DNA from: Isotricha intestinalis
Taxonomy: Eukaryota > Ciliophora > Litostomatea > Vestibuliferida > Isotrichidae
Assembly: GCA_023807065.1 (NCBI GenBank)
Contig: JAJJLU010000746.1
Location: 1-20,290 of the forward strand
Length of the DNA: 20,290 bases
Direction of reading: 5' to 3'
In this document: piece after piece, positions 1 through 9,863 of the stretch
Position numbering within the stretch: position 1 is the first letter of the stretch
How the letters are laid out: each line of letters opens with the position of its first letter
Position numbers and translations under genes: made by a program
Notes under the pieces: generated by a model
The model's database searches: none
Seen by the model: the letters and a program-made list of their open reading frames with translations, nothing else
Told to the model about the DNA's origin: nothing

Positions 1-35
1 CCCCAATCCCCAATCCCCAATCCCCAATCCCCAAT
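1..35. repeat. Telomeric repeat, five CCCCAAT units
   Basis: Five perfect head-to-tail copies of CCCCAAT start at base 1; the sequence then changes to unique AT-rich DNA. On the other strand this is ATTGGGG, a G-rich repeat running outward, so the left edge of the window is a chromosome end. The unit is one base longer than the Tetrahymena CCCCAA repeat and differs from the CCCCAAAA of Oxytricha and Euplotes. A heptamer of this kind is, as far as I recall, what rumen litostome ciliates carry; that attribution is from memory. Only 35 bases are present, so the true telomere length cannot be read here. Confidence 0.95.
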
Positions 36-177: not shown

Positions 178-2328
178 TCATTTTTGAGTCAATAATTTAT
201 TTTCTGTTTTTATCTTAAATAAATGAAAAATACTTTCTGACCAATTAATATAAATTTCACTTTTTTTGTTTCTCTCTTTTTTTATAATAGAAATAATACC
301 TTCTAATTTAAATAATATTTACTTCTCTTTATGTTTTACTTTCTAAAAATCAAAAAAATTTTACTTTCTTAAAATAAATATAAATTTATACTTTCTTTGT
401 ATTCATAAAATTATAATAATACTTTCTATATATTTATTAAATTTAGATTTAATTCCTAAATATAATTAAATATGAATGACTTTCTTTGTTTATGATTATT
501 TATTTGTACTTTCTATTTTATATTAAAAAATTAAAAATACTTTCTTTAAAATATAATAAAACTATTTTTTTATACATCCTAAATATTAAACAAATAATTT
601 ACTTCCTTATTTAATTATTTATTTTTGAATGATATTACTTTCTATATAATTAATCACACACTATTACTTTCTAAAAAATATAATAAAATAATACAGGCTA
701 TAATTAAAATATTTTTTATTACCTCCTAAATTTTAAGTTATTATTAAAAAACTCCCTATTATTAATTTAATAATTTATACTATCTAATTTTATAATCAAT
801 GAATTACAATCTAAATTTCTATTAATTATATTATTAACTTCCTTTCAATTATTTTAAAAATTTACAAACTTATTCAATATTTTATATTATTTACTTCCTT
901 TAATATCATAAATATAATTACAGCCTAAATAAATTTTTTTAATTACTTCCTTCATATTATATTATAAAAATACATTCTTTTTTCATTTTAAGGAAAAGTA
1001 TTACTGTCTTTTCATGAAAAATTAAATTACTTGCTATAAGAATAATGAATATTATGACTTCCTAAAAATCATTAATAGTGCAATTACTAACTAAAAATAT
1101 AATCAATTATTTTACTGGCTATAATTATTATTTATTTTTTACATACTAGAATAAAAAATTTAAATAAATTAATTGATGTACTTTCTGTAAATAAAAATTT
1201 ATGTAAATATTACTTCCTTAAATTGTATATTATTATATATATACAAGCTATATTTTATAATGATTATTATTACAAGCTTATTTATTATAATAATTTTATT
1301 CACTTCCTATAATTAAAATTCAAAATATTTTTACTTCCTATTTTTTAATTTAAATATATACAATCTAAATGTCAATTAATTCATAACTTACTCTCTATTA
1401 AATCAGGTAATTTGATTACTTTCTAAAATATAATTAATATTTACTTTCTATATTTTATTATTAAATTTATAAATAACTCTCTATAATTATTATTTATATT
1501 ATTAACTCTCTATTAGAATAAGTATTTAAAAAACATCCTATTTTATCAAAAATTTTTTTAACCTCCTTTTTTTTAAAAAATAGTTTTACTTCCTAAATAT
1601 TTTATGGCATTTAAATGTTTTTTACTGTCTGTTTGTAAAAAAATATTATTTACTTCCTATTAATTTAATATTATTTTATTTACAGCCTAAATTTTAAAAA
1701 AGAATATACTCTCTTTTTTTCAAATATTTAGATTACTCCCTTAGAATAAAATGATATTAAATACATTCTTTTCATGTTATAAATTTTTTTACAATCTTAA
1801 ATTTTATTTTTATTGAAATTTATTTACAACCAATATTTATTATCAAAATAATTACATCCTATTAATTTTATTTAATTTTTTTACTCTCTACAAAAGTAAT
1901 TAATGATATTTACTAACTAATATTAATTAAATAAATTATTACAATCTAAATTAATTTTAATGAAATACTTTCTTTGAGTAAAAATTTTTTTATTACATAC
2001 TAAATAATTATTGTTTTTTTGTACATACTATATATTAATATTATTTCATTTACAAACTAAAAAATTAAAGTTTCATAAACCAACTATAATTTATTAATAT
2101 TTAATTTATTCTCTATAATTTATTATTAATGATTTACTCTCTAAATTTAATCATCTTTTTATTTACAGACTATATTTCATAGTTAAAAATTATACAGGCT
2201 TGAATTTTCATTAATATTTCTTACTTGCTATTTTTTTAAATCAATTTATTTACCATCTATAATATTATTATAAATAAATTTAACTTCCTATTTTCCATAA
2301 TATAACTTTTATTAACATTTGATGCCAT
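178..2328 (-). CDS. Gene split into 73 exons, 70 of them one codon long; 90-aa basic protein of unknown function
   Basis: I do not recognise the protein. On the minus strand the motif AG-NNN-GT recurs about every 29 bases from 2287 to 234. Treating each AG as an intron end and each GT as the next intron start leaves three-base exons. Exon 1 (2328-2317) reads ATG GCA TCA AAT. Then come 69 single-codon exons, a 15-nt exon (275-261, RETKK), one more single codon (236-234) and a last exon (213-178) coding IKTENKLLTQK and TGA. The 72 introns are all phase 0, 20-37 nt, and 69 are GT...AG. None of the 70 codons is a stop; AAA (14), GAA (12) and AGA (7) lead, as in neighbouring genes. The product begins MASNEMQPSRRLFYY, looks helical and charged up to about residue 45, and ends in a lysine-rich tail. 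The introns resemble two unambiguous ones at 18784 and 18930. Splicing itself is inferred; no transcript data were available. Confidence 0.85.
234..2287 (-). other. Exon map of the single-codon exons
   Basis: Each number is the first base (highest coordinate) of a three-base minus-strand exon: 2287, 2256, 2227, 2198, 2169, 2140, 2112, 2083, 2056, 2027, 1999, 1971, 1945, 1916, 1887, 1858, 1830, 1795, 1767, 1739, 1712, 1686, 1656, 1628, 1592, 1565, 1537, 1509, 1480, 1447, 1422, 1394, 1364, 1337, 1306, 1276, 1247, 1216, 1184, 1145, 1118, 1090, 1061, 1033, 1007, 976, 949, 924, 897, 868, 841, 810, 783, 755, 725, 697, 670, 641, 605, 578, 543, 512, 483, 455, 425, 394, 367, 342, 302 and, after the 15-nt exon 275-261, 236. 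Exons total 273 nt including the stop; introns total 1878 nt. Intron interiors share no common sequence beyond AT-richness and their ends, so this is not a tandem repeat. Confidence 0.82.
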
Positions 2329-3309: not shown

Positions 3310-3534
3310 GATATTATTTAATATTTTTTTTTTTTCATATAGCTTTTTTTAATTAGTTAATTTTTATATTTTTTTTGATTCGAAGGAAAAATAATGGTCA
3401 GTTATTATAAAAAGAATAATAATAAAACAACAATTTTTAAAAAAATTATGTCATAGTAAATCAAAAAAAAATTATTAAATTATTTCATAAAAATAAAAAA
3501 TAAAATTTAATATATTTAAATATTTGAAAGGTTT
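3310..3534. other. Spacer between two convergent genes
   Basis: The stops of the plus-strand gene ending at 3309 and the minus-strand gene ending at 3535 face each other across 225 bases. No open frame or AG-NNN-GT pattern is present. It probably carries both polyadenylation regions; no site can be picked out because A and T runs are everywhere. Confidence 0.5.
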
Positions 3535-6500
3535 TTAATTATTAATCTTTCTTCCTAAGTCAATATAAGGAGTCATTTCTTCATATTTTCCAATGAAATT
3601 TATTTGACTCCTAGAAATTTCACTCATAGAAAAAGGTTTAAAAATAGAATTATTAATAACTTGTTCATAATTTACTTTATTCATTTTACCACTTTTGTCA
3701 TATTTTAAAGCACTTGTAATTAAGTTATTTCTATCTTCAATTACTTTTAAATCTGTTGTAATTTTTGTTGGATCGTTGACGTCATATTTGAATTTTTCTG
3801 CAAATAAAACGGCATAAATTCTATTATTAAACATAACAAATTTATTTTTTAAAAAAACTTCATTTTTTCTCTCGCTTGAAGTAGCACCATCAATAATTAA
3901 TTCTTTCCATAATTCAATAAATTTTTTAAATGAATCTTGACAATCACAAATTTTTCCAAAAGAATTAATTAAATTAATATTTGTATCTAGAATTTTAGTT
4001 CCATAACCTTCATTATTTAAAAAATATTCTCCTATAATTTTTCTGTATAAAGAAATCAAATGTATTCCTGCTCTATGACAAACTATATTTTGAGGTAAAA
4101 AATCAATAACTTTTCTATCTTCTGAATTTAATTCTTTAAAAGGTTTAATTTTTATTTTTAATTCTGATTTATCATCTCCTGAAAGTTTAGAAGATAAACC
4201 AGTAATAACTCCTCCTTTTTTTAATATATCATTTACAGAGATTTTTTCTGGATTTAAAGGATTTCCTCCATTAATTTCTAATTTATGTTCCTTCTCCTTC
4301 ATAAATTCTTTTAAAGAAATATAAGCCCATCCACAAGAAATTTCAATTGAATCGTTAGAACTTATATCATTACTATTTTTTATTACTAATACAAATTCAA
4401 ATATTGCATTAATATTATCACTGTCATTATCATTATATCTTATAATAATATTGTTGTTAAATTTTGTTCTATCTTCTTCAAATACCCATCTATTAGGTCT
4501 TTCTTTATTTGAATTACATTCAATTGAAATTGCATTACCTATAAAAGTTTTAGTTACAGTATTATATAATCCTATTTTTAATAATCTATGACATATTTCT
4601 AAAGTAGGTTTTTCTACAAAAAATAAATTTATTCCTGGAATTGGAATTCCAGTTGCATATTTAACAAATGAAATTTTACTATCTATTTTACAACTTACTG
4701 GATTTAAAGTTTTTTTTTTATTTTGTGGATTTTTATCAATTAATGGTTTAATATCACTAAAGAATATTCCGTTTGTTTCTTTCTTTGGTTTTAATGCTGA
4801 TGATAATAATAAATTTAATTTTTTTTGCTCTTCTCTTATAAACGATGGTGTAAAAGTTAAAGGATACATTTCAAAAATTGAATTATAATGTTTTGGATGA
4901 AATTTTGAAAAAGAATTTAAACCTAAATTATTTACAATTAAATCATTTTCATTATTATTTGGTTGATTATATACATTTAAATTTTCAAGAATATTTACAA
5001 ATTCATTATAATCAATTAAATCATTATAAACAATAGATGCTTTATCACATAAATTATTAATATCTTCTTCAGTATAATCAGTATTAAACTTATTTTTTAA
5101 AATATATTTTAATTGTTTACTCGTTAAATAACCATTTTTTTCAGTATCACAATCTTTAAAAATTTGAGTAATTTGTTCTCTTTCTCTTTGTTGATTTCCT
5201 AATTCATTATAAACAAATTTAGAAACTAATGTATTAAAATCTTTTTTTGCAATAGAAGTATTATTATTATTATATTTTTGTAAAATTGTATTTGAATCAT
5301 TTTTTGAAATTTTTTTATTTAAAATTTGTAAACATTTATGAAAATCATCTCCAGAAATCATTTCATCATGATCAAGGTCACTACTTTCAAATAAGGAATG
5401 TATTATTTCTTGCATTGATTTATTATAATTCTGACTAAAATTTTTATTATTCATTATAAAGTAATTCATTAATTGACTAAATTCAATTTGTTTATCTTTA
5501 TCATTATCAATTATATCAAAAATTTGATTTACTTCTTCTTCTTTTAAATCATTTATTGAGTTTCTTAAAGCAGAAGAAAATTCTTCTTTTCCAATTAAAT
5601 CACTCATATTATTTTTGTTAAGAATTTTTGAGAAAAAAGCATTTGGTTGTAATTTATTATTATTTATATAACTTTTTATTTTTTTAATTCCATTAATTGC
5701 AATATTAGTTTTAAAGTTTTGATTAACTGGTAAATTACTTTGAGCTAAAGCACTTGTTCCCATTGATTTATTTTGATAAGGTTCATCAAAATAATTAGGA
5801 GAATATTTTTTAATTATATTAATTAAATCAATAACTCTAATATTATTTCTATTAACTGGATCAAATTTATTTAATAAAATATTAATTTGATTTTGTTCAA
5901 TTGGATAAGATGCATTTTGAAAACCTTTTTGTAATTCAAATGAAGAAATCATTTGTTTATCATTTACTTTATGAATATAAATAGAAGGAAAAATTTGTCC
6001 AAATCTAATTTTATTTTTTGTAATAAAATCAGAAAAAGACTTCATTATTTTTTCCCATTCTGGAATTTGAATTGGAGCAGATTGAGTTTGATTATTATTT
6101 TTTTCTTCTTTAGTATTATTGTTTTGATTTGATAATTCATATAAATTTACTTTTTCAAAACTTTTAACATAACTTCCTTCTAAATTTGCTATTTTTGGTC
6201 CTGATCTTCCACCATATTGAATTAAGGTTTGAATTAATCTATTTGTATTTACTATATATTCATCATTCATTTTCTCATCTGAAATTATAAAATCAAAAAA
6301 ATCTTTCATTGAATCATTATCATCAATTTCAATCTCTAAATCATTTCTAAATATTGATTTTACTTTTTCTAGTGTTATATATCCTTTATTTTCATTATCC
6401 AATGGCCTAATAAAATTTTCTATACTCTTATGTTTTTCATCAATTATTATATCTGCAACAAATTGACTTAATTCTCGAACATGATCTATATCTTCTTGAG

Positions 6501-9186
6501 TAAATTCTATATTTTTTGTTTTATATACTATTTTTTTATTTTTATCATCAATAATTGAATCTTTCACTTTATCTTTTTTTGATGTTGAAATTTCTTCTGA
6601 TTTATTTTCATTGTTTTTATTGTTGTTTTGTAAATTATTTGTAACATTATTATTTTTTGGTGGTTCATCAAATAACTTATATACCCAAACAAATTCAGCT
6701 AATTTAACTTTTGAACCAGGTCCTTTTTGTTTGTTTGTAAAATCATTTAATAATTTAAAAAAATGCAAATTTTCACTGATGTCAATATTTCTCATTAATT
6801 TTTTAAATGATTCAACGTCTATTTCACCTTCATCTGTTATATCTTCATTTGAGTTTTCAAAATAATCAACAATATCATTAATTTGAAATTTTTTAAGATT
6901 AGTTTTAATATTTTTAAATAAAAATTCATGTTGTTTATATTCATTTGAATATAAATTTTTGTTTTCTTCAGGACCATCTTGAAATTTTTTTAAATTTTTT
7001 ATTAAATTTCCTTTAGTTGAAGAATCTTTTATCATTTTTCCTTTTTTAATAAAATCTTCTTCAGTCATTTCATTTAAATCAATACAATTAAATAAATTTT
7101 GTTGATTTATAGGTTTTATTATATCATTTAAAACATTATCCCATTGATAATTTTGATCACAAATATTAGAATATAAATATTTTATTTCCTCGTCATGAGG
7201 TAAAGTAAAGTTAATTTTATTTAAAAATTTTTTAAAAATTTCAAAATTAATATTTAGCATATTTGAACAAGCTATTGAATATTCATTTTTATAATTAATA
7301 TTATTATCTTTAATATATCTTCTAAAATCAATTAAATAATCATTAAAATTATAATTACAATCATGAAAAATATTCCATAAAGTTCCATTATCTTTTTGTT
7401 GAACTGAAACAACATTTTTTAGAAATTCATCATAATTATATTGACCATTTACTTTAGAATTTAAAGTTTGTATAATTAAATTTAATTCTTCTGGATTTAA
7501 ATTAACTCCAAAATTACTTAAAACTGAAGAAAAATCAAATAAATTTATATGAAGAGTTTTATTAGGATCTCTTTGTGAAAAAAATCTTTTTGGTTCTTCT
7601 CCAAAAGGTCTTAATATACTAAATATTTTATAATAAATTTTAAAATAATTATATTTTTGATGATTTGATAAAATTGTATTTATTTTTTTCTTTTGTTCAT
7701 TTATTCTATTTTGAATATCAAAAAATAAATTTTGAGAATTTTTAATTGAAGAAAAACGAAGCTCAGAACGTGTGTCTATATGTGGTTGAGGTGTATATTT
7801 TTTATTTTCGTTTTCTTTTGGAATTTGAGAAATATTATTTTGATTTATTGTATTAGTATTTTCTTGAGAAATTTGATTAGAAGAATTTAAGTTTTGATTT
7901 AACTCAGGTTTTGGTTGATATAAGGAATTTGATGTTTGATTAAAAATATTTGAGGATTGTGTTTGATTAAAATTATTTGTTGATTGATTAAAATTTTTTG
8001 TTTGTTCAAAATTATTTTGACTTTGATTAAAATTATTTGGTTGATTGAAATTATTTTGACTTTGATTAAAATTATTTTGATTAAAATTATTTTGATTTTG
8101 GTTAAAATTATTTTGGCTTTGATTAAAATTATTTTGACTTTGATTGAAATTATTTGATTGATTAAAATTATTTTGGCTTTGATTAAAATCATTCGGTTGA
8201 TTAAAATTATTTTGACTTTGATTAAAATTTTTTGTTTGTTCAAAATTATTTTGACTTTGATTAAAATAATTTGTTTGATTAAAATTATTTTGACTTTGAT
8301 TAAAATTATTTTGATTTTGATTAAAATTATTTTGACTTTGATTAAAATTATTTTGACTTTGATTAAAAGTATTTTGATTTTGATTATAATTATTAAAAGT
8401 ATTTTGATTTTGATTAAAATTATTTGTTTGATCAAAATTATTTTGACTTTGATTAAAATTATTTTGACTTTGATTGAAATTATTTTGACTTTGATTAAAA
8501 TTATTTTGACTTTGATTGAAATTATTTTGACTTTGATTAAAAGTATTTTGACTTTGATTAAAATTATTTGTTTGATCAAAATTATTTTGACTTTGATTAA
8601 AATAATTTGTTTGATTAAAATTATTTTGGCTTTGATTAAAATCATTTGTTTGATTAAAATTATTTTGACTTTGATTAAAATTATTTTGGCTTTGATTAAA
8701 ATTATTTTGACTTTGATTGAAATTATTTTGGCTTTGATTAAAATTATTTTGACTTTGATTAAAATTATTTTGACTTTGATTAAAATTATTTTGACTTTGA
8801 TTAAAATTATTCGTTTGCTCAAAATTTTGTGATTCTATTGGCTGATCAAAATTTTGTGTTTGAACAAAGTCTTTTTTTTGAAAGTTATTATTTGTTTGAT
8901 TGATCGTATTATATTGACTTTGATTAAAAGTACTGGAAGCAAAATTATTAGGAAAACCATCTTTTGAATTCATATTATTTCTTTCATTAGAAAACTGAGA
9001 ATTTTCATTATTACCTTGTATTGAATTTGACATTGGAATTGTGTCAATATTTTGATTTGTTCTTGTGAATGATGGTGTTAGGCCACTATTATTCAATTGA
9101 CTTTGATTTTGTTCAAAATCTATTCCTGGATTTTCAGGATTATTAATTGAATCATTTATGTTTTCTTTTGGAAACTCATTTTCCAT
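3535..9186 (-). CDS. Gln/Asn-rich, EF-hand and nephrocystin-1-like protein (1883 aa)
   Basis: It is probably a ciliary or basal-body protein. Residues 1-120 are Asn/Gln/Ser-rich. About 120-425 is an array of heptapeptides close to NQSQNNF. About 480-1450 is a helical region with EF-hand-like loops: DNENKGYITLEK (930-941), DNDKDKQIEFSQ (1227-1238), DLDHDEMISGDD (1270-1281) and DTEKNGYLTSKQ (1347-1358). The last position is Q, D or K instead of Glu, so calcium binding is doubtful at some sites. From about 1490 to the end the pattern matches nephrocystin-1: SCGW (1617-1620), EINGGNPLNPE, FLPQNIVCHRAGIHLISLYR, and a terminal FSMSEISRSQINFIGK resembling the FDLSEQ..DFLGEM end of NPHP1 as I recall it. 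The SH3 domain of animal NPHP1 is not visible. In animals NPHP1 acts in the transition-zone gate. The start is the first ATG of an uninterrupted frame. Confidence 0.85.
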   Translation of the reverse strand: MENEFPKENINDSINNPENPGIDFEQNQSQLNNSGLTPSFTRTNQNIDTIPMSNSIQGNNENSQFSNERNNMNSKDGFPNNFASSTFNQSQYNTINQTNNNFQKKDFVQTQNFDQPIESQNFEQTNNFNQSQNNFNQSQNNFNQSQNNFNQSQNNFNQSQNNFNQSQNNFNQSQNNFNQTNDFNQSQNNFNQTNYFNQSQNNFDQTNNFNQSQNTFNQSQNNFNQSQNNFNQSQNNFNQSQNNFNQSQNNFDQTNNFNQNQNTFNNYNQNQNTFNQSQNNFNQSQNNFNQNQNNFNQSQNNFNQTNYFNQSQNNFEQTKNFNQSQNNFNQPNDFNQSQNNFNQSNNFNQSQNNFNQSQNNFNQNQNNFNQNNFNQSQNNFNQPNNFNQSQNNFEQTKNFNQSTNNFNQTQSSNIFNQTSNSLYQPKPELNQNLNSSNQISQENTNTINQNNISQIPKENENKKYTPQPHIDTRSELRFSSIKNSQNLFFDIQNRINEQKKKINTILSNHQKYNYFKIYYKIFSILRPFGEEPKRFFSQRDPNKTLHINLFDFSSVLSNFGVNLNPEELNLIIQTLNSKVNGQYNYDEFLKNVVSVQQKDNGTLWNIFHDCNYNFNDYLIDFRRYIKDNNINYKNEYSIACSNMLNINFEIFKKFLNKINFTLPHDEEIKYLYSNICDQNYQWDNVLNDIIKPINQQNLFNCIDLNEMTEEDFIKKGKMIKDSSTKGNLIKNLKKFQDGPEENKNLYSNEYKQHEFLFKNIKTNLKKFQINDIVDYFENSNEDITDEGEIDVESFKKLMRNIDISENLHFFKLLNDFTNKQKGPGSKVKLAEFVWVYKLFDEPPKNNNVTNNLQNNNKNNENKSEEISTSKKDKVKDSIIDDKNKKIVYKTKNIEFTQEDIDHVRELSQFVADIIIDEKHKSIENFIRPLDNENKGYITLEKVKSIFRNDLEIEIDDNDSMKDFFDFIISDEKMNDEYIVNTNRLIQTLIQYGGRSGPKIANLEGSYVKSFEKVNLYELSNQNNNTKEEKNNNQTQSAPIQIPEWEKIMKSFSDFITKNKIRFGQIFPSIYIHKVNDKQMISSFELQKGFQNASYPIEQNQINILLNKFDPVNRNNIRVIDLINIIKKYSPNYFDEPYQNKSMGTSALAQSNLPVNQNFKTNIAINGIKKIKSYINNNKLQPNAFFSKILNKNNMSDLIGKEEFSSALRNSINDLKEEEVNQIFDIIDNDKDKQIEFSQLMNYFIMNNKNFSQNYNKSMQEIIHSLFESSDLDHDEMISGDDFHKCLQILNKKISKNDSNTILQKYNNNNTSIAKKDFNTLVSKFVYNELGNQQREREQITQIFKDCDTEKNGYLTSKQLKYILKNKFNTDYTEEDINNLCDKASIVYNDLIDYNEFVNILENLNVYNQPNNNENDLIVNNLGLNSFSKFHPKHYNSIFEMYPLTFTPSFIREEQKKLNLLLSSALKPKKETNGIFFSDIKPLIDKNPQNKKKTLNPVSCKIDSKISFVKYATGIPIPGINLFFVEKPTLEICHRLLKIGLYNTVTKTFIGNAISIECNSNKERPNRWVFEEDRTKFNNNIIIRYNDNDSDNINAIFEFVLVIKNSNDISSNDSIEISCGWAYISLKEFMKEKEHKLEINGGNPLNPEKISVNDILKKGGVITGLSSKLSGDDKSELKIKIKPFKELNSEDRKVIDFLPQNIVCHRAGIHLISLYRKIIGEYFLNNEGYGTKILDTNINLINSFGKICDCQDSFKKFIELWKELIIDGATSSERKNEVFLKNKFVMFNNRIYAVLFAEKFKYDVNDPTKITTDLKVIEDRNNLITSALKYDKSGKMNKVNYEQVINNSIFKPFSMSEISRSQINFIGKYEEMTPYIDLGRKINN
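7921..8829 (-). repeat. 21-nt coding repeat array (heptapeptide NQSQNNF type)
   Basis: About 40 imperfect 21-nt units lie in frame inside the 1883-aa gene, each coding a variant of NQSQNNF with substitutions such as NQTN-F, DQTNNF or EQTKNF. Because the unit is a multiple of three, open frames also persist in other frames and on the plus strand; those are shadows. Such Gln/Asn arrays resemble prion-like, phase-separating segments. Copy number is likely to vary between cells and may be collapsed in assemblies. Confidence 0.93.
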
Positions 9187-9863
9187 TTTTATGTTAATTA
9201 AAGTTATTTTTTAATTTATAATTTTGATTTTAATTATAAAAAAATGATTTAAATATTATTAATAATTATAATCCAATTTTCAAAATAATGGTGAAAAAAG
9301 ATTTAAAGAAGAAATTAATATTTCAAAAGGTCAAATCTAAAAATTTCATTGTTTGAATAGAATTCATCAATAAAACAAATTAATTAAATCATTATTTCAA
9401 ATTTAAGATTCATAAAATAAAGAATATTTTTTATTCATAAAAAGAATTATTATATATCAAAAATGAAATGATTATAATTTTATAATCAAAATATTTAATT
9501 GGAAATCATAAATTAATTTTTTAAATAAAGAATATTTTCGAATTTTTTAAAAATTCATTGAATAAATGATGGAATTATATATAAATATTTAATTATTTTA
9601 TTTGAATGATTGTTTTAATTAATAGTGAAACTAAAAAATTATTTTTTAAATTAGATTTTATTCTTTTATATTTAAATTATAATCAATTTAAATTCCAATT
9701 AAAAATGCTCATAAAAATTAAAAAATAATATAATGAAATACAATTTATTTATCAAAATGTATTAAATGTGAATTAAATTTGACATTTTATTTAAAGATTT
9801 TTAAAAAAATTTAATTTACTTAATATTCGTTTTGATTTTTCTGATTATTAAATAATCAATTTT
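9187..9863. other. 677-base intergenic region
   Basis: It lies between the stop of the NTPase gene (upstream on the minus strand) and the start of the 1883-aa gene, so it holds the 3' end of one and the promoter of the other. I searched both strands for the AG-NNN-GT pattern and found no series. A 22-codon plus-strand frame starts near 9288 (MVKKDLKKK...) but has nothing to support it. No RNA gene or repeat is visible. Confidence 0.6.

Follow-up and report, generated by a model that had tools for sequence, protein, structure and literature searches.

A likely protein-coding gene of three-base exons beside a telomere of the ciliate Isotricha intestinalis

Introners are mobile introns of some protists. 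Genes with many very short exons are described in Schistosoma mansoni, whose micro-exon genes (MEGs) have 10-20 exons per gene, of 6-81 bp in the text of the source and 3-81 bp in its abstract, separated by introns of 0.1-5 kb (PMC10526429). Isolated microexons of 3 nt and 1 nt are reported in Drosophila homothorax (PMC7392893) and Arabidopsis APC11 (PMC4674806), and for Nyctotherus ovalis introns of 21-29 nt with GTA...TAG borders are reported in ordinary genes (PMC2633312).

The locus analysed here lies next to the telomere of a 20,290-nt stretch of DNA, hereafter the window, which is an entire contig (working label C546) of a genome assembly of 57.3 Mb in 2153 contigs. Its minus strand very probably carries a protein-coding gene whose message is split into mostly 3-nt exons by 72 introns of 20-37 nt, with the introns predicted to be removed by the spliceosome in order, 5'-most first. 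As in MEGs, there are many very short exons, and MEG exons are mostly multiples of three (PMC10526429); unlike in MEGs, nearly all exons of the arrays found here are of 3 nt, the introns are about 26 nt long, and no window intron approaches the schistosome-type length of at least 0.1 kb. The exon sizes are the same as those of the microexons reported as spliced in homothorax and APC11, but the latter stand singly between ordinary exons whereas here they follow one another without a break. Length range and border consensus resemble those of the tiny introns of N. ovalis, but the introns here lie 3 nt apart and none were detected in ordinary genes in a 220-kb sample. Among open-licence PMC papers, the literature on 3-nt, one-codon and 1-nt exons, on ciliate microexons and introners and on rumen-ciliate introns yielded no such gene. 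The features of the window, as read, are as follows.

1..35, plus strand: telomere, five CCCCAAT repeats
178..2328, minus strand: whole likely gene, 73 exons and 72 introns, 90-residue product
2317..2328, minus strand: first exon, 12 nt, ATGGCATCAAAT (MASN)
302..2287, minus strand: array of 69 three-base exons, AG-NNN-GT, with introns of 22-37 nt between them
2110..2112, minus strand: triplet AGA; its donor is a non-canonical AT
1828..1830, minus strand: triplet GTT; its acceptor is a non-canonical TG
453..455, minus strand: triplet GAA; its donor is a non-canonical TT
261..275, minus strand: 15-nt exon AGAGAAACAAAAAAA (RETKK)
234..236, minus strand: seventieth three-base exon, AAA
178..213, minus strand: last exon, 36 nt, with TGA at its end

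Two litostome ciliates, Muniziella cunhai and Balantidium ctenopharyngodoni, are reported to have telomeres of the motif CCCCAAT; as the window starts with a telomere, its start is a macronuclear chromosome end. Around 178-2328, a stretch of 2170 bases holds 69 AG-NNN-GT sites on the minus strand, compared with a mean of 5.7 (s.d. 2.3, maximum 15) in 1000 dinucleotide shuffles of these bases, which bears out the near-regular spacing noticed in an earlier, sequence-only reading of this DNA. Other gaps between AG and GT (0-2 and 4-23 bases) were not enriched in the same 2170 bases, with 0-7 occurrences each. Gap 3 was absent from the opposite strand of the array region, and the remainder of the window held at most 6 AG-NNN-GT sites per 2170 bases. 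Counts rose at gaps of about 28-34, which corresponds to one intron plus the exons on either side of it. The regular three-base array next to the telomere is real and far beyond chance.

When the predicted exons (one of 12 nt, 70 of 3 nt, one of 15 nt and one of 36 nt) are joined, the resulting 273 nt form an open frame of 90 codons from ATG to TGA, the same as the one first proposed. The coordinates 302..2287 of the array mark where its last and its first triplet begin when read on the minus strand; the last one covers 302-300. Strict AG-NNN-GT borders flank 67 of the 70 triplets, and the other three have one non-canonical border each; the GAA at 453..455, with its TT donor, was skipped by the gene finder described below. 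Of the 69 strict sites, TAA at 1390 and TGT at 660 were left out of the gene, since both fall within introns, 1 and 7 nt past the preceding exon. The donor is GT in 70 of the 72 putative introns, AT in one and TT in one, and the acceptor is AG in 71 and TG in one. Intron length has its mode at 25-26 nt, and 42 of the 72 would, if retained, bring in an in-frame stop. The gene may also end differently, with a last exon AAAATAA behind a nearby ACAG.

Scored by the codon usage of this genome, the window triplets have a log-odds of +16.8, compared with a mean of -51.5 (s.d. 12.9, maximum -13.7; n=5000) when their letters are shuffled, and they contain no stop where shuffled letters average 7.3. The sequence-only reading had pointed out both that none of the 70 triplets is a stop and that they are codons preferred in the neighbouring genes. 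Rotated and reversed readings scored -43 to -56. The reverse complement scored +12.2 with 2 stops and is thus also fairly codon-like, so codon usage alone is no proof of coding. The product had no homologue in Pfam (best 0.59) or PDB (best 0.07) and none among 91 candidates from a large protein set at E<=10; within its own genome there were weak matches only (best 0.19) and no relative of the window gene. As no relative was found, the case for this gene rests on its own statistics together with the genome-wide pattern.

Used as a DNA query, the window array matched other parts of the genome at 65-69% identity, and further DNA searches with other arrays, in each of which the best 40 of 99-558 candidates were scored, found more arrays. 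Counting the window, 26 contigs carry strict AG-NNN-GT runs of at least 10 (59 loci read). No run of at least 10 was present in 20 contig starts sampled irrespective of arrays or in four weak protein matches (L001-L004). On 24 contigs including the window, L015 and L017 being left aside, the strict triplets contain 4 stops in 905 when read in register, and the same 905 joined triplets contain 58 and 121 when read one or two bases off. Triplets of relatives drifting into stops had been named at the outset as an outcome that would speak against a gene, and these counts favour coding. By a gene finder whose splice-site and codon tables were derived from the window, the longest uninterrupted row of 3-nt exons has about 88 members; since this program admits no stops and gives preference to 3-nt exons, and since its settings were altered after inspection of its output, only the strict triplet reading is independent.

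On 15 array contigs besides the window, all from the window-array search, the match lay at most about 4 kb from a contig end. This closeness may reflect subtelomeric placing or assembly breaks; the arrays of C453, C1349 and C741 are internal. At L031 (C7, ~2581-2690), a RING-finger-like reading seems to require a frame change, which could be an assembly error.

The triplets of independent arrays spell one protein motif, KWELR-CTxCxYxFWKGEEKP, and in several arrays ICxxxACPxCG follows further downstream. Common to nine aligned loci is C-x2-C-x-Y-x-F-W-K-G-E-x-x-P, with exchanges of TGT/TGC, GGA/GGG/GGT and CCA/CCT among them. Of 49 pairwise codon differences between the nine loci in six columns selected as conserved, 41 are synonymous; over all 15 columns, 56 codon differences are synonymous versus 195 non-synonymous. 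Triplet bases differ by 21% (0.214) between these loci, compared with 66% if shuffled within loci. The introns mismatch by 17% (0.167) in a gapped alignment with gaps left out, and are no more diverged than the triplets.

Several arrays would encode a C-terminal tail behind an ordinary long 5' exon. At L010 the gene finder joins the array in frame to a protein kinase exon (5.6e-49; B-box below cut-off) and at L009 it is in frame with a trypsin-like peptidase exon (1.8e-8), while the matches of L019 to a trypsin-like peptidase (4e-5) and of L007 to a B-box protein (0.0057) are below cut-off. Pfam searches with the triplet-coded tails gave zinc-ribbon matches all below cut-off (best 16.7 bits), and CxxC...CPxCG in the tails is only a resemblance to zinc-ribbon or rubredoxin-like proteins. 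A tail alignment (A1) had no match outside this genome at E<=1 (426 candidates). Uninterrupted tail copies were not found in the genome itself with a composite 37-residue query or with the L046 tail, an empty result of little weight. At L010 and L007, AT-AG introns stand beside near-identical GT-AG introns, and a SWVKDLGDEE repeat of L010 has a GT donor after D in one copy and an AT donor in another.

Outside this genome, the kinase had 23 homologues at E<=0.01 (911 candidates), of which 16 were inspected as full sequences. KW[EG][LY]R is reached in 20 of the 23, with 15 continuing into Y and a few residues and 5 ending at R; two others end earlier and one differs. Reading through AG|GTAT or AG|GTAA would give such ends, which support a conserved donor in the relatives but do not in themselves show arrays there. 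None of the 23 has the tail in one frame, and DNA of kinase relatives was not found in viral or GTDB contigs.

Two arrays, L015 (C570) and L017 (C1592), follow a different register. Their 66 triplets contain 21 stops in register 0, none in register 1 and 3 in register 2; their introns would be in phase 1, with each codon split over two neighbouring 3-nt exons. Read in register 1, L017 continues into ...RCCTECGYKFW, which is the shared motif, and the L015 array bridges two ordinary exons. One codon per exon with introns in phase 0, as the sequence-only reading had it, therefore describes the window gene but is not general: as read across loci, the constant is the 3-nt exon and not the codon. 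Some arrays can split every codon because an exon length of 3 is the apparent constraint and keeps the frame in any phase. A putative 1-nt exon precedes the CTxC motif in 11 of the 14 loci examined (L006, L007, L009, L010, L022, L045, L047, L051, L052, L053 and L055); it is A in 8 and G in 3 and always completes an R or K codon.

One locus was chosen by its ordinary exon. With only the exon before KWELR as query, the genome gave 60 matches, and C741, which the array searches had not listed, was picked for a frame ending soon after that exon; 531 nt downstream were examined. Its triplets read CRKCDHQFWKGNEEP and agree with 7 of 9 conserved motif columns, the misses being H for Y and N for E. 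The chance of such agreement is about 2e-7, and in a control with other arrays outside their motif copies no offset exceeded 4 of 9. Resemblance of its introns to those of other loci was 0.034 at the same positions and 0.022 at other positions, and its first donor is GA. By this comparison, the triplets of C741 are kept as protein while its introns have drifted; clear intron divergence with the motif kept was seen at C741 alone. That one protein motif is preserved in the triplets of many loci, among them C741 with introns diverged beyond recognition, likewise speaks against triplets that drift freely. The 60 kinase/B-box paralogue matches have frames of about 390-450 or about 680-990 residues, with a few shorter; since several short ones lie on array contigs, many more triplet-coded tails may exist.

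These results bear on whether the arrays could be decayed genes, in which introns invaded unimportant coding ends and left pseudogenes, or junk C-termini for which proper splicing never takes place. Such decay would agree with the non-canonical borders, of which the window gene has 3 in 72 introns and other loci have more, with the position of many arrays at chromosome or contig ends, and with two copies of the motif array, L047 (C1349) and L048 (C88), in which triplets or borders are lost and in-frame stops appear. These two copies are probably decaying. The presence of just 4 stops in 905 triplets, the motif columns conserved through synonymous exchanges, and a motif kept at C741 amid wholly diverged introns argue against decay as the explanation, and we consider it unlikely.

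Ciliates delete thousands of short DNA sequences, and the spacers seen here, at lengths near 26-28 nt, resemble the smallest eliminated sequences of Paramecium. The intervening pieces could then be internal eliminated sequences, cut from the DNA in macronucleus formation, with the contigs as unprocessed copies. However, the telomere of the window marks a macronuclear chromosome end, and the pieces run from GTA to AG in the orientation that introns would have. Eliminated sequences would also be flanked by direct repeats (TA or pointers), whereas repeats of at least 2 nt are present in just 1 of 72 pairs on the right side and 3 of 72 on the left in the window gene. Together this makes DNA elimination quite improbable.

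A 27-nt intron is found exactly 30 times on 8 contigs (C275, C1083, C1364 and others) and a 28-nt intron exactly 37 times on 14 contigs (C1349, C1460, C538 and others), with no occurrence of either in reversed controls. Introns are alike within many arrays, while those of the window gene are unlike each other. Near-identical spacers in several arrays, with the 27-nt spacer 30 times on 8 contigs, would also be produced by non-coding DNA repeated in tandem around a conserved AG-NNN-GT, such as a subtelomeric satellite or serial binding sites for a protein. Against this, stops are avoided in one register only, the arrays share a motif and continue the frame of ordinary exons, and the phase-1 arrays are meaningful only when joined; a repeat of this kind is very improbable.

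The recurring introns sit between quite different triplets, coiled-coil-like at L014 and cysteine-rich at L046. This suggests that introns multiplied as units, by duplication or by spread. Near-identical introns at many loci are the mark of introners and are found in these arrays (27-nt, 30 times; 28-nt, 37 times), not in the window gene; unlike introners, the introns here are very short, lie side by side and are confined to arrays as far as seen, with no insertion mechanism shown. As to a target-site duplication, the window gene has short direct repeats in the 1 and 3 of 72 pairs given above, though old introns may have lost theirs. Neighbouring triplets are identical more often than under permutation (P<0.05) in 3 of 14 arrays (window, 0.006; L014, 0.03; L012, 0.04). 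The most-alike introns share their triplet more often than the least-alike in 11 of the 14, equally often at L006 and less often at L013 and L021. The test is mixed, with some support for duplication of intron-plus-triplet units, and leans slightly towards it.

The genome contains matches to U1 snRNA (72.6 bits; Rfam cut-off 69.5) and U6 snRNA (108 bits; cut-off 44), the U1 match having ACTTACCTG near its 5' end, three bases from the match start. GT-AG borders, an open frame restored by joining and the presence of U1 and U6 are as expected of U2-type spliceosomal introns. Stop avoidance and the kept motif support the sequence-only reading of a gene of three-base exons, whose splicing we infer from sequence. 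Ordinary GT-AG introns numbered 36 candidates versus 27-82 for six other dinucleotide pairs, with no excess at 20-29 nt, in a 220-kb sample (the window plus 20 contig starts), by thresholds that 671 of 1000 planted introns passed, so introns seem to be concentrated in arrays. Ribosomes that skip the spacers in translation, for which the bypassed elements of some yeast mitochondria have similar spacer lengths, are a scarcely credible explanation, given borders of spliceosomal introns and the presence of U1 and U6.

In the gene as we read it, the spliceosome would remove introns with GTA...AG borders in order from the 5' exon downstream. Each intron would have to go after its upstream neighbour because a 3-nt exon cannot hold two spliceosomes at once. 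Once the upstream intron is gone, the triplet would end a longer exon and the next GTA would be an ordinary donor. The arrays are continuous in frame with ordinary exons, and the layout with the long exon first fits ordered removal. We tentatively suggest, as a possibility that we hold with less than even confidence, that this is an undescribed gene format, in which introner-like introns multiplied until exon borders came at every third base. The spliceosome would then act as a stepping reader that takes three bases per cycle, mostly in phase 0 and otherwise in phase 1, and skips, being frame-neutral, could vary transcripts residue by residue.

If the arrays are spliced as read, there would be no practical lower limit on exon size for this spliceosome, and exon definition could not operate. 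Splice sites 3 nt apart would force the ordered removal of dozens of introns, and this forced order would open splicing order, and what the exon itself contributes, to direct test. Standard gene prediction and RNA-seq mapping would overlook such genes, so more of them may lie unnoticed elsewhere. This one genome has both an array of dissimilar introns (the window) and one of near-identical introns (L014), a setting in which intron multiplication could be studied. Elsewhere in the window, the minus-strand frame at 3451-9279 contains a 21- and 39-base tandem repeat at 7962-8811, about 850 bases in all, which codes for FNQSQNN-type repeats.
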